In this document: one piece after another, positions 27,824 through 49,814 of the stretch
How the letters are laid out: each line of letters begins with the position of its first letter
Numbering within the stretch: the stretch's first letter is position 1
Assembly (NCBI RefSeq): GCF_021405525.1
Contig: NZ_JAGQAG010000001.1
Coordinates: forward strand, 868,001 to 932,000
Source: Ruegeria pomeroyi
GTDB lineage: Bacteria; Pseudomonadota; Alphaproteobacteria; Rhodobacterales; Rhodobacteraceae
Length of the DNA stretch: 64,000 bases
Reading direction: 5' to 3'
Notes under the pieces: generated by a model
Seen by the model: the letters and a program-made list of their open reading frames with translations, nothing else
What the model was told of the DNA's origin: nothing
Database searches by the model: none
Translations under genes and position numbers: made by a program

Positions 27824-27846
27824 GAGATTTTTCGACGAAAAATCTC
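27824..27846. repeat. Near-perfect palindrome, TTCGACGAA core
   Basis: An 11-bp arm (27824-27834) and its exact reverse complement (27836-27846) flank a single A, giving the core TTTTTCGACGAAAAA. A longer palindrome with the same core is at 40248-40278. It follows the FAD oxidase gene and could act as its terminator. Confidence 0.6.
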
Positions 27847-27857
27847 GCCTCCGGCGG

Positions 27858-27912
27858 GAGTATTTGTCGCGGAATGAAGCGGTGATGGCCCTTCATTCCG
27901 CCCAAAATACTC
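27858..27912. repeat. Inverted pair of GAGTATTT...CGGAATGAAG elements
   Basis: Two 22-bp arms (27858-27879 and 27891-27912) are inverted around 11 bp and match at about 18 of 22 positions. The same core recurs inside xdhB (47131-47153) and xdhA (49313-49335). The rest of 27804-28058 holds no gene. Confidence 0.7.
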
Positions 27913-45039: not shown

Positions 45040-46004
45040 GCGCTGAGCTCCTTCCTTGTGATGCCGCTTTGCTCCGGACGCAACAGCCGGGCGGCAACGC
45101 CGATGGCGATGCATGCGGGATGTTTGCCCAGGGCGGGATCGCCGATGGGACAAGTGATACGGTCGATCTGTTGCGGCGTGTGGCCAAGCGCGGCCAACCG
45201 CGACCGGAATCGTGCCCATTTGGTAGCCGAGCCGATCAGCCCGGCAAAGGTAAAATCATGTCGCAGCAACCGGTTGCAGAGTTCCAGGTCCAGTTCATGG
45301 GAATAGGTCAGGATCAGATGTTCGGCCTCTTTCGGCGCATAGGGAACCAGATCGGCGGGCCGCGTCGCGGGGAGACGGGTAACCCCGCCGGGTATCGTTT
45401 CGGGAAACCGTTCGGGCGCGGTATCGACCCAGGTGATGGCGAAGTCGGGCAACGGGGACAGCGCATTCACCAGCGCCCGGCCGACATGGCCGGCACCCCA
45501 GACCCACAGTTGCCGGGAGGGTTGCAGAACCGGCTCGACCATCCAGTCGCCTACCAGCTGCGCCTCGGGCAGCACCCCCTGTCCGCGCGCCTGCGCGAGC
45601 AGGCGCTTGACCGTGAGAGGCGCGCCGGAAACCTGCAAGGTTTCCGGTCCGTTTTCCGTGCCGGAAAACGGCAGCGCGGGCCGCGCGACCACCGTGCCAT
45701 CGACCGTGTCAATCCGCGCCGCGTCCCAGCTCTCCGTCAACAGCGTCACCGCCCCGCCACAGCACTGGCCCAGCTCCGGCCCCAGCGCATGACGGCTCAA
45801 CCCCAGCCGCCCGGTGCGCGCGGCCTCCGCCGCCTGAAACTCCAAGGCTCCGCCGCCGATGGTGCCTGACTGGCCATTCTCCCAGACCAGCATCGCCGCG
45901 CCCACTTCACGCGGGGACGATCCCCTGATCGCCGCGATCACCACCCGGGCCACTGGCCCATGTTGGGCCACCGCCGTGCGCAGCTCCTCCAGATCAAACG
46001 CCAT
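45036..46004 (-). CDS. xdhC: XdhC, molybdenum-cofactor insertion protein for xanthine dehydrogenase
   Basis: This 322-residue protein sulphurates or inserts Moco for XdhB. The N-terminal XdhC/CoxI segment has VIAAIRGSSPREVGAAMLV, SGTIGGGALEFQ and GQCCGGAV (conserved Cys pair). The C-terminal Rossmann domain has LWVWGAGHVGRALVNAL, HDFTFAGLIGSATKWARF and ITCPIGDPALGKHPACIAI. It overlaps xdhB by 11 bp and the transporter ATPase gene by 4 bp. Confidence 0.92.
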   Translation of the reverse strand: MAFDLEELRTAVAQHGPVARVVIAAIRGSSPREVGAAMLVWENGQSGTIGGGALEFQAAEAARTGRLGLSRHALGPELGQCCGGAVTLLTESWDAARIDTVDGTVVARPALPFSGTENGPETLQVSGAPLTVKRLLAQARGQGVLPEAQLVGDWMVEPVLQPSRQLWVWGAGHVGRALVNALSPLPDFAITWVDTAPERFPETIPGGVTRLPATRPADLVPYAPKEAEHLILTYSHELDLELCNRLLRHDFTFAGLIGSATKWARFRSRLAALGHTPQQIDRITCPIGDPALGKHPACIAIGVAARLLRPEQSGITRKELSA

Positions 46005-48324
46005 CGCTTAGCCTCCGGATGCCTTTCCAGACCTCCTCCGCCGTCGCCGGCGCGTTCAGCGCCGGATAGGCATCGCCACAGGAGGCAACCGCATCCGACA
46101 AGGCCAGCCAGGCCGAGATGCCCAGCATGAACGGCGGCTCGCCCACCGCCTTCGACCGATAGATCGTGTCCTCTCGGTTTTGCCCGTCCCACAGCGCCAC
46201 GTTGAACACTTCGGGCCGGTCAGAACAGGCCGGAATCTTGTAGGTCGAGGGCGCATGCGTCCTGAGCCGACCCTTGTCGTCCCAGACCAGCTCTTCGGTG
46301 GTCAGCCAGCCCGCGCCTTGCACATAGCCGCCCTCGACCTGGCCGATATCCAGATCGGGGTTCAGCGAGGCCCCCGCATCATGCAGGATGTCCGCGCGCA
46401 GGATGCGGTATTCGCCGGTCAGCGTGTCCACCGCCACCTCGGTCACCGAGGCGCCATAGGCAAAATAGTAGAACGGCCGCCCATGTCCCTGGATCCGGTC
46501 CCATTCAATCTTGGGCGTCTTGTAGAACCCGGTGGCCGACAGGCTGATCCGCCCCTGATAGGCCAGCGCCGCCGCCTCGGCGAAACTGTAGCGCGCCTCG
46601 CCCACCTCGACCTGCCCATTCCCGAACCGGACCGAGGCGACCTCCGCCTGATGCCGCTCGGCCAGATAGGCCGCCATCCGGTCGCGGATGGTGTCACAGG
46701 CGGCCTTCACCGCCATGCCGTTCAGGTCAGACCCCGACGAGGCCGCCGTGGCCGAGGTATTGGGCACCTTGGCGGTATCGGTGGCGGTGATCTTCACCAT
46801 CTCCAGCGGAATGCCGAACCGGCTTGCCGCCACCTGCGCCACCTTCTGGAACAGGCCCTGGCCCATCTCGGTGCCGCCATGGTTCAGATGCACGGAGCCA
46901 TCCTGATAGACATGCACCAGTGCACCGGCCTGGTTAAGATGAGTGAGGGTAAAGGAAATCCCGAACTTCACCGGTGAAAAGGCAATCCCCCGCTTGACGA
47001 TCGGGTTGGCCGCGTTCCACGCCGCCACCGCCGCCTTGCGCGCGGCGTAATCCGACGACGCCAGCAGCGCCTCGGTCATCCCGTGCAGCTCGAAATCCTC
47101 GACCACCTGCCCATAGGGTGTGGTATTCTCCTTCATTCCGCCGGAAATACTCCGGGGGGTGTGGGGGGCAGGGCCCCCCACCGGTGCCGCATAGTAATTC
47201 CGCTGCCGCAACTCTACCGGGTCGATCCCCAGCACATGCGCGGCGTGGTCCATGACCCGCTCGATCCCGACCATCCCCTGCGGCCCGCCAAACCCGCGAT
47301 AGGCGGTGGCGGACTGGGTATTGGTCTTCAGCCGGTGGCTTTCGATCCGCGCGTTGGGCAGCAGATAGGCATTGTCCGCATGCAGCATCGCCCGGTCTGC
47401 CACCGGCAGCGACAGGTCCTGCGCCCAGCCGCAGATCGCGTGATGCAGGAAGGAGACGCCCAGAATACGCCCCTCACCGTCGAACCCGGCACGATAGCCG
47501 ATGCGAAAGGCATGGCGCTTGCCGGTGATCACCATGTCGTCGTCGCGGTCATAACGCATCTTGCAGGCGCGCCCGGTGGCGCGCGCCGCCACGGCGCAGG
47601 CCACCGCCAGCGCGTTGCCCTGGCTTTCCTTGCCGCCAAAGCCGCCGCCCATGCGGCGGGTCTCGACCCGGACGGCGTGCATCGGCACGCCCAAGGCCTC
47701 GGCCACCTTGTGCTGGATCTCGGTCGGGTGCTGGGTGGAGCTGTGCACCAGCATGTCGCCGCCCTCGCCAGGCAGGGCCAGCGCGGCCTGACCTTCGAGA
47801 TAGAAATGTTCCTGCCCGCCCAGCTCGAACGTGCCCTCGATGACATGGGCCGCCCCGGCAATCGCCGCCTCGGCATCGCCCTTTTCATAGATGCGCGGCC
47901 CGTCCTCGAACCGGCTGTCGGCCGCCAGCGCCTGTTCGATGGTCAGGATCGCGGGTTCCTCGGCATAGTCGATCCGCGCCAGCCGCGCCGCCTTGCGCGC
48001 GGCCAGATGGCTGGTGGCCACCACTACGAAAAGCGGCTGGCCCACATAATGAACGGTGCCGTCCGACAACAGCGGCTCGTCATGGGCCGAGGGCGAGACA
48101 TCGTTGGCAAAGGGCAGGTCGTCGGCCGTCATCACCATCACCACGCCGGGGGCGCTCTTCACCTCATCGAGGTTCATCGCGGTGACCCGCCCCTTGGCGA
48201 TCGTGCTCAGGCCAAAGGCGAGATGCAGCGTGTCGCGTGGGGTGGGGATGTCATCGACATAGCGGGCGGTACCGGCGACATGCAGCGGTGCCGCGTCATG
48301 CGGCAGGGGTTTGGCGACGCTCAT
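45994..48324 (-). CDS. xdhB: Xanthine dehydrogenase molybdopterin subunit XdhB
   Basis: This 776-residue catalytic subunit oxidises hypoxanthine and xanthine to urate. Moco contacts include [26 protein letters not shown] and the catalytic Glu729 in [11 protein letters not shown]. One oddity: about residues 377-397, between RNYYA and [12 protein letters not shown], hold an extra Gly/Pro-rich stretch encoded by a palindromic repeat element (47131-47186). The frame stays open and the flanking family blocks are intact, so the enzyme is probably active. It overlaps xdhA and xdhC. Confidence 0.94.
47131..47186. repeat. Palindromic element inserted in frame in xdhB
   Basis: A 29-bp core (47131-47159: CTTCATTCCG, then CCGGAAATACTCC and a G run) is followed by a perfect 9-bp GC hairpin (47161-47169 with 47173-47181). 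The core matches the xdhA copy at 28 of 29 positions in opposite orientation, and the arms at 27858-27912 more loosely. It adds about 20 residues without breaking the frame. Confidence 0.8.
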
Positions 48325-49814
48325 GCCCGTACCTCCAGCACATTGGTCAACTGGCCCTGATCCTCGGCGAAATAGCGGCGCAGCATCGCCTTGGCGGTCT
48401 CCATCCGGTAGCGGGCCGAGGCGCGCATGTCCGACATCGGGGTGAAATCGGCCTCGAACTCTGGCAGGGCCGCGTTAACAACCTGTTGCGTCCAGGGCTG
48501 GCCGATCAGCGCCGCCTCGACCGCGCGGGCGCGTTTCGGGATACCCGCCATACCGCCAAAGGCGATGCGGGCCGCGGTGACGCTGCCACCCTCGACGGTG
48601 ATGTTGAAACAGCCGCAGACCGCCGAGATATCTTGATCGAAACGCTTCGACAGCTTGTAGCATTTCAGCCGGTCGGGCTGGCGCGGGAAACTCACCGCCT
48701 CGACGAACTCGCCCGGCGCGCGGTCCTGCTTGCCATAGTCGAGGAAGAACGCCTCGAGCGGCAGGTCGCGGCGGGTGTCGCCCCGGCGCAGATGCAGGGT
48801 CGCCCCCAGCGCGATCAGCGCGGGCGGGTTGTCGCCGATGGGCGAGCCATTGGCGATATTGCCGCCAACGGTGGCGGCGTTGCGCACCTGCACGCTGGCA
48901 TAGCGGCGGATCATTTCGCCATAGGACGGGTGCAGGGGAGCCACGGCGTCGCGCATTCGGTTCATGTCGACCATGGCACCGAGGCGCACATGGGTATCGG
49001 TGATCTCGATCTCCTTCAGATCGGCGCAGCCGGAAAGGAAAATGACCTTGGGCAGGTCGCGCAGCTGCTTGGTGACCCAGAGGCCCACATCCGTCGCCCC
49101 GGCGATCAGCGTGGCATCGGGATGGGCTTCGTAAAGGGCCGCGAGTTCATCGGAGGATATTGGGGAAGAGGGGGGCTCTGCCCCACCCGCCATTGCCTCT
49201 TGGGCAACTGGCGCATTGGAAGAGGGGGGCTCTGCCCCACGCGCCATTGCCTCTTGGGCAACTGGCGCATTGGAAAAGGGGGGCTCTGCCCCCCGACCTG
49301 AGGTCTCCCCCCGGAGTATTTCCGGCGAAATGAAGGCGCGATCGGTGGCGAGCCAATCAGGCTTGGGCGCCTCCTCGACCGCGCGGGCGGCGCGGATGAT
49401 CGGGGCATAGCCGGTGCAGCGGCAGAGATTGCCGGCCAGTTGCGTGTCGTGATCGGTGGCGCCCTCGGCATGGCCCGCAACCATCGACATCACGAAGCCC
49501 GGGGTGCAGAAACCGCACTGACTGCCGTGATGGGTGACCATGGCCTGTTGCACCGGGTGGCTGCCGCCCAGCCCTTCGACCGTGCGCACCGCCTTACCAT
49601 GCAGTTGCGGCAGGAACAGGATACAGGCGTTCAGGGCGCGGGTGCCATCGGCATCGCTGACAGCCACGGTGCAGGCGCCGCAATCGCCCTCGTTGCAGCC
49701 TTCCTTGGTGCCGGTCAATCCGCGTGCCTCGCGCAGCCAATCGAGCAGTGTCGCCGTGGGGTCGACCCCTGCCAGCGTAACTGTCTCTCCATTCAGAAGA
49801 AACGAGATGTCCAT
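48321..49814 (-). CDS. xdhA: Xanthine dehydrogenase Fe-S/FAD subunit XdhA
   Basis: This 497-residue electron-transfer subunit has 2Fe-2S cluster Cys in CNEGDCGAC (C40, C45, C48), C64, then CGFC (C100, C103) and CRC (C131, C133). The FAD domain starts near residue 220 ([12 protein letters not shown], then [20 protein letters not shown]). Residues about 163-219 are a low-complexity linker with an 18-residue repeat [17 protein letters not shown](R/G), encoded by repeat DNA at 49159-49335. The inserted part falls between domains, where it should be tolerated. First gene of the purine operon. Confidence 0.94.
49159..49294. repeat. 54-bp tandem repeat (two copies plus partial) in xdhA
   Basis: Copies begin at 49159 (with two extra G), 49215 and 49269 (partial). 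Each contains a GC hairpin of the GGGGGGC-TCT-GCCCC type. The period of 54 bp equals 18 codons, so the reading frame is kept and copy number could vary without frameshift. Confidence 0.85.
49307..49335. repeat. Palindromic-element core inserted in frame in xdhA
   Basis: On the minus strand this 29-bp core is 28/29 identical to the xdhB copy at 47131-47159, read in the opposite orientation relative to the gene. It is joined through a GACCT-GAGGTC spacer (49295-49305) to the GC-hairpin repeats. Confidence 0.8.

Follow-up and report, generated by a model that had tools for sequence, protein, structure and literature searches.

In Ruegeria pomeroyi, one short palindromic DNA sequence lies in frame in both xdhB and xdhA, the neighbouring genes for two subunits of xanthine dehydrogenase (XDH). 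How did the same repeat come to encode part of both, and what has become of it since? We address this question in a 64,000-nucleotide (nt) stretch of assembly GCF_021405525.1 (contig NZ_JAGQAG010000001.1, positions 868,001 to 932,000; hereafter the window) and in related genomes. The element is a short palindromic repeat of the Rhodobacteraceae, without a gene of its own. Its history is likely to have been one of spread by copying outside genes, with rare landings in tolerated protein loops that were then overwritten by, or exchanged with, the version current in the host genome. The features concerned are as follows (coordinates are those of the window).

45994 to 48324, minus strand: xdhB, the molybdopterin subunit of XDH, an open reading frame (ORF) with 1jro_B, Rhodobacter capsulatus XDH, as its best PDB match (E=0)
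47131 to 47181, minus strand: element copy in xdhB, in sense orientation, composed of a hairpin, GGAGTATTT, CC and GGCGGAATGAAG and coding for 16 residues between NYY and TTPYGQ
47161 to 47181, minus strand: GC hairpin GTGGGGGGCCCTGCCCCCCAC of the xdhB copy
48321 to 49814, minus strand: xdhA, the 2Fe-2S/FAD subunit, an ORF with 2w3r_A, R. capsulatus XDH, as its best PDB match (E=1.6e-174)
49278 to 49335, plus strand: element copy in xdhA, antisense to the gene, coding for 19 residues in the linker between the 2Fe-2S and FAD domains
27824 to 27879, plus strand: intergenic element copy, left half of a tail-to-tail dimer, composed of hairpins, GGAGTATTT, GT and CGCGGAATGAAG
27891 to 27912, minus strand: intergenic element copy, right half of the dimer, composed of CTTCATTCCGCC, CA and AAATACTCA

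The copies at 47131-47181 and 49278-49335 are one element, mutually inverted. Repeat comparison of the window pairs 47130-47159 with 49307-49336 over 30 nt at 97% complementarity, and GC hairpins are present at 47161-47181 (xdhB) and 49278-49294 (xdhA), in agreement with a first-pass annotation of this DNA that had described a shared core with a GC hairpin in the two genes. Read on the coding strand, the xdhA copy starts with CTTCATTTCGCC, its orientation being opposite to that of the xdhB copy. Both reading frames stay open through the copies, so the claim of in-frame insertion stands, and the related intergenic copies that had been noticed at 27858-27912 proved to be the same element, arranged as a tail-to-tail dimer. 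The element opens with one or two GC hairpins, which are followed by GGAGTATTT (or GGGATATTT), a pair of free bases and, last, a tail of 12-13 nt that varies from genome to genome. Total size is approximately 33-60 bp (58 bp for the xdhA copy in the window, approximately 33 bp for the shortest, L243 and L255). Four tail types, A to D, have a common right half, in which AAATACTCC (or AAATATCCC) follows the two free bases and leads into GC hairpins of various kinds. The B tail is CTTCTTTCTGGTC; the A core ends, by inspection, in GAAG and, on the hairpin side, in GCCCCC. At the gathering score, Rfam matches a single tRNA in the window and has no match for the element.

Most copies lie outside genes. 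With up to 3 mismatches allowed, the A-type core matches at 91 places in the 4.51-Mb genome, versus 0 for a reversed-pattern control; the B-type tail has 48 sites (control: 0) and a generic pattern 128 (control: 3; 100 of the 128 itemised). We scored 88 of the 91 A-type sites, leaving out the two at window 27858-27912 and one inside the stretch of L004, and scored the B, C and D sites within 54 retrieved stretches. A codon model places 85 of the 88 A-type loci between genes; of the other three, two are the xdhA and xdhB copies and one (L038) is a weak ORF call (score 16.7, stopping 7 bp beyond the core) that was excluded from the in-gene count. None of 37 B sites and none of 11 D sites is in a gene; one of 8 C sites is, in nnrD. 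The genome search for which the first-pass annotation had called finds many copies, of which three of the 144 classified (four tail types) are in solid genes: xdhA, xdhB and nnrD. Copies outside genes mostly adjoin gene 3' ends (the 85 intergenic A-type loci comprise 45 convergent, 35 codirectional [20 and 15 by orientation] and 5 divergent), and all 21 close pairs are tail-to-tail.

In its near-exact form the A core is confined to few genomes. When no more than 1 mismatch is allowed, a search of 295 family genomes (294 genera) gives 84 copies here, 44 in a genus mate, 17 in one other genome and a single copy in each of two more; the remaining 290 have none. A looser A core is found in all five members of the genus (93, 66, 17, 45 and 36 copies). 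Twelve other genera, picked for having copies in their xdh genes, carry 9-245 generic sites each (control: 0-5), and the only four with itemised sites (G010, G044, G035 and G039) each have tails of their own. The maximum is reached in G110, with 245 generic sites versus 0 in the control, approximately twice the 128 of the R. pomeroyi genome, in a smaller genome (3.8 Mb). The xdhA copy of G110 is one of 34 same-type sites in that genome (at most 2 mismatches); 29 of the 30 examined are intergenic, and the one in a gene is the xdhA copy itself. A plasmid collection searched with the xdhB copy gave no match.

The insertions in xdhA and xdhB are old and not private to this genome. Within the genus, the xdhA site is filled in all five members and the xdhB site in four, genome G296 being without the xdhB copy. 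Across 80 named relatives, a strict motif detects the element in the xdhB loop of 39 and in the xdhA linker of 23: 14 genomes have both copies, 25 the xdhB copy only, 9 the xdhA copy only and 32 neither. Decayed xdhB copies (L202, L209, L251, L258 and L260) fail the strict motif, so that 39 of 80 is a lower bound and the minimum numbers of changes on an 81-row XdhB tree (20 for xdhB, 17 for xdhA) are inflated, decayed copies having been scored as absent. L186 was removed from the xdhB set (chance GTACTT), and some G-numbered and named genomes may belong to one species. Orientation is fixed, sense in xdhB and antisense in xdhA: neither set holds a separate copy in the opposite orientation, and the single opposite-strand motif in each gene set is the palindromic reading inside L220's normal copies. 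All 39 xdhB copies are in a single codon phase; 36 xdhA copies, from a set of 114 linkers to which five loci had been added because four of them had shown the element, occur in all three (26, 6 and 4).

The loops themselves vary in length. Of the xdhA segments without a strict copy, 53 of 57 have 41 residues or fewer, versus 41-60 residues with a copy. The xdhB segments without a strict copy span 14-69 residues, and 26 of 41 have at least 37, with decayed copies or unrelated inserts. In other genera, five xdhA linkers (L127, L128, L129, L132 and L134) are long as well, 106-120 residues from CRCTGY, and lack the motif. The xdhA and xdhB loops are thus general length-variable sites of which the element is one frequent occupant. 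At the XdhB site, the Ruegeria arenilitoris/atlantica group has a longer, different insert (PHEDLTSRGAVE-like), and other genera have loops of the GTGKRFGGTHSP type; the loop is a general hypervariable site, with variants seen in L155, L173, L184-L190 and L192-L198. Alignment with relatives, proposed earlier as a check for precise insertions, showed the same sites filled in the genus and in other genera and did not resolve exact boundaries or a target duplication; repeat-free relatives with the same extra residues were not seen, loop length alone proving nothing. In R. capsulatus XDH, for which the structure is solved (1jro, 2w3r), the XdhB site is taken by ERGGLSAPPSPPEPIATKKTQ and the XdhA site by AFTLAQLSSGVRGQTAPAF, the latter aligning gap-free with AFSLPEILPGVRGQAAPA, which is encoded by the element in L234. 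Judged from the protein sequences, both peptides appear to be element-derived, which would make such a repeat the source of two loops in a crystallised model enzyme.

The tails suggest that the in-gene copies have not been inherited passively. Across the 14 genomes with both copies, the xdhA tail and the xdhB tail of the same genome have 9.71 of 12 positions in common, against 7.78 when genomes are permuted (p=5e-5), despite being read on opposite strands in the two genes. Agreement is clearest in two Roseovarius genomes (L236, with GCCAAAAAGAAA in both genes, and L257, with GGCCAGATGAAC and GGCCAGATGAAG), and the exceptions are L201 (5/12) and L253 (3/12). Copies flanking the genes (within 20 kb) also match their own genome slightly better, the best match being 6.31 versus 5.58 of 12 for xdhB tails (p=6e-4) and 5.26 versus 4.68 for xdhA tails (p=0.014). 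In G297, xdhB has a B tail where three genus mates have an A tail, an in-place swap, and, on visual comparison, G010 and G039 each have copies elsewhere in the genome that equal their xdhB tail from GAGTATTT onward. A single ancestral insertion per gene, inherited vertically with no later exchange, would account for the one phase and orientation of 39 of 39 xdhB copies and for the xdhA copy common to all five genus members. It is contradicted for the tails by their agreement within genomes, the A-to-B difference in G297 is against it, as are the three xdhA phases, and we consider it very unlikely.

The in-gene copies also keep their hairpins. Twelve xdhA copies (11 distinct), the fixed-length ones from 12 chosen loci out of 36 copies, align gap-free; two matching stretches, one from xdhB and one from outside xdhA, were omitted from the alignment. 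In the second hairpin, pair 33-39 is CG (6), UA (3), AU (1) or GC (1), and pair 32-40 has changed once on both sides. For three measures (covariation score, percentage paired and doubly changed cells), none of 500 shuffles attains the observed value; for two weak ones, 31 reach the count of doubly changed pairs and 99 that of pair types, and the covariation rests on 11 distinct sequences with one well-varied pair. Changes at pair 33-39 hit codon second positions and alter residues (RGEAAG, RGEVAD, RGEDEV, RGEGAA); the xdhA copy in the window reads RGETSG, through pair 32-40. Among copies with the long-form pattern (9 of 39 in xdhB, 9 of 23 in xdhA), perfect second stems of at least 4 bp are present in 9 of 9 xdhB copies (0.55 expected) and 8 of 9 xdhA copies (0.21 expected).

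Protein selection also acts on the xdhB copies, as seen at the first free base. Of 39 xdhB copies, 34 have C there, which gives a Ser codon; outside the xdh genes, 29 of 111 copies of the R. pomeroyi genome have C (p=2e-11), a comparison that sets the copies of many genomes against those of one. This constraint, together with the similar peptides in R. capsulatus XDH, is what speaks for ordinary loops conserved for protein function, their DNA similarity being incidental. The same DNA, however, lies on opposite strands in two genes and in three phases in xdhA, the covarying arms change residues, and the many near-identical intergenic copies already contradict this account by their number; it is extremely improbable.

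Another reading gives the hairpins themselves a function. As intragenic structures similar to terminators or attenuators, they might tune xdhAB expression or block antisense transcription, and their terminator-like outline, the placement of copies at gene ends, the retention of hairpins inside genes and the recurrence of the same two neighbouring genes across genera would all fit. Behind the stem the element has just TATTT, where an intrinsic terminator would have a U-run. A terminator scan run on the in-gene copies, however, calls neither, the 35 codirectional intergenic copies face both ways (20 versus 15), and the strict motif is missing from 41 of 80 xdhB genes, 57 of 80 xdhA genes and both genes in 32 of 80 relatives. 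We regard such a function as unlikely to explain the copies. An mRNA stem between the complementary xdhA and xdhB copies was rejected as the main reason for their presence because 34 of the 48 copy-bearing genomes have one copy only and the free bases agree in 3 of the 14 with both.

The third host gene lies outside the window and was recognised by its Pfam hits.

L300:1328-2968 (G000:C1:1913622-1915262): nnrD, NAD(P)H-hydrate dehydratase/epimerase, with an in-frame C-type copy

The nnrD copy sits in a loop before RAVVLCGPGNNGGDG. From 101 matching genomes (own included) 30 loci were retrieved, 29 of them readable, and the loop is filled in 5 of the 29, in two codon phases. The DNA motif identifies the loop peptides PGYLQQEE, PRDISGKRK, PRDISSKRK and PREYFGQDE; the copy of G031 (PGYLRQEE) was recognised by its peptide only. 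In nnrD of G080, G036 and G034, matches break again near query residue 377, where there are 100-133 nt of extra DNA, possibly a second insertion site. A different addition to a host gene is found beside the element in xdhA.

49164 to 49271, plus strand: two head-to-tail 54-bp units in xdhA, a 98% direct duplication adding 2 x 18 residues to XdhA

This duplication repeats the GC hairpin and is absent from the four same-genus relatives, which do have the element. It also holds a further imperfect palindrome (GCGCCATTGCC...GGCAACTGGCGC).

In the history that we favour, the element would spread through copying and its landings in genes would mostly be lost, the few loop landings that keep an open frame being tolerated. 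Such in-gene copies would then repeatedly be overwritten by, or exchanged with, the genome's current repeat version, perhaps by recombination, or by template switching, where the GC stems and GGAGTATTT are shared; sequence and hairpins would thereby be renewed while site and orientation stay. The protein would gain an insert rich in Gly, Pro, Ala and Ser, probably near neutral. Several observations weigh against this history, including the narrow covariation base, the weak shuffle measures and the many-against-one comparison of free bases given above. The xdhB tails of G035 and G044 (two of the four genera itemised) are unlike their genomes' common tails, and the single phase and orientation of the xdhB copies are also compatible with one ancestral insertion. 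The xdhB loop is length-variable in general and also houses unrelated inserts, and no empty/filled pair is close enough to give boundaries or a target duplication. Folded as RNA, neither of the two in-gene copies stands out (z of -1.22 and 0.17). The structure prediction for XdhB (mean predicted local distance difference test score 58) is too poor for use, so that the term "tolerated loop" draws on length variation and on a place flanked by conserved blocks. No mobility enzyme was identified.

The principal competitor is site-specific re-insertion, in which a recombinase or HUH-like enzyme would repeatedly hit the same xdhA and xdhB targets in fixed orientation while older copies are lost. In its favour are the constant orientation within each gene, the use of three codon phases in xdhA and two in nnrD, and a patchy presence requiring at least 20 (xdhB) and at least 17 (xdhA) changes on the 81-row tree. 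The change counts are inflated, neither a target motif nor a duplication was seen, and no Y1 (HUH) tyrosine transposase was found in the five genus genomes (the control search was positive in 5 of 14 named genomes); we think this rather unlikely. Mobility by a REP-associated tyrosine transposase (RAYT; REP, repetitive extragenic palindromic), as in REP systems, was rejected on the absence of Y1_Tnp from the five genus genomes. More tentatively, and less likely than not, RAYT-independent machinery may home this family-wide element, always in one orientation, to a pair of loops in a single enzyme complex and continually rewrite it in place to match the host version. Were this homing and rewriting true, active concerted evolution at the DNA level would be writing protein sequence.

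Protein-coding palindromic repeats have been known mainly from Rickettsia and Wolbachia, with scattered REP cases. Here they occur in a free-living, ecologically important family, in the same loops of one enzyme in many genera, with a repeat that resembles that of the host. At each site, insertion, replacement and decay can be followed as a natural series under protein selection, and the sites make repeat movement without a RAYT testable. The first-pass annotation knew of no such description in roseobacters; a literature search, with subscription papers mostly outside its reach, likewise returned no account of the element in Rhodobacteraceae among the matches listed, and a search by sequence motif returned none on the subject by title among the matches listed.

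Among known systems, Rickettsia palindromic elements (RPEs) are the obvious comparison: two papers give 44 insertions in R. conorii, nearly half of them in ORFs (PMC10969869, PMC2229807). The element shares with RPEs a palindromic repeat in frame in conserved protein genes. RPEs, however, measure 105-150 bp versus approximately 33-60 bp, are Rickettsia-specific and enter many unrelated genes, whereas the element has 3 of 144 copies in genes, in the same loops across genera and with host-specific tails. Wolbachia palindromic elements (WPEs) are alike in being in-frame palindromic inserts in conserved genes, with WPE-like regions in addA, addB and priA; they differ in host, and these regions are roughly 170-840 nt long (PMC4224334). 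GTAG/CGTC-tagged REPs are extragenic near 3' ends, single or dimeric, and sometimes inside ORFs, different REPs occupying about the same site in Xanthomonas recB (PMC3733652). The element is likewise extragenic, near 3' ends and found as inverted dimers, and its A-core ends lack the tag; the words Rhodobacter, Ruegeria, Silicibacter and Roseobacter are absent from the main text of PMC3733652. Small hairpin repeats also include enterobacterial repetitive intergenic consensus (ERIC)-type elements, found fused in frame (PMC2229807), and SPRITE, named as a terminator-like element (PMC10969869). Compared by description, such miniature inverted-repeat transposable elements differ in host, and terminal inverted repeats and target duplication were not seen in the element, whose dimers are inverted and for which no sufficiently close empty/filled pair exists among the compared loci. 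Because its size and target range are not those of RPEs, and the tag and transposase of REPs were looked for and not found, we file the element under neither. The Rickettsia-like behaviour first proposed holds as far as a dispersed palindrome adding in-frame residues is concerned, and fails on size, target range and the rarity of in-gene copies: the element behaves as Rickettsia palindromic elements do without belonging to them.

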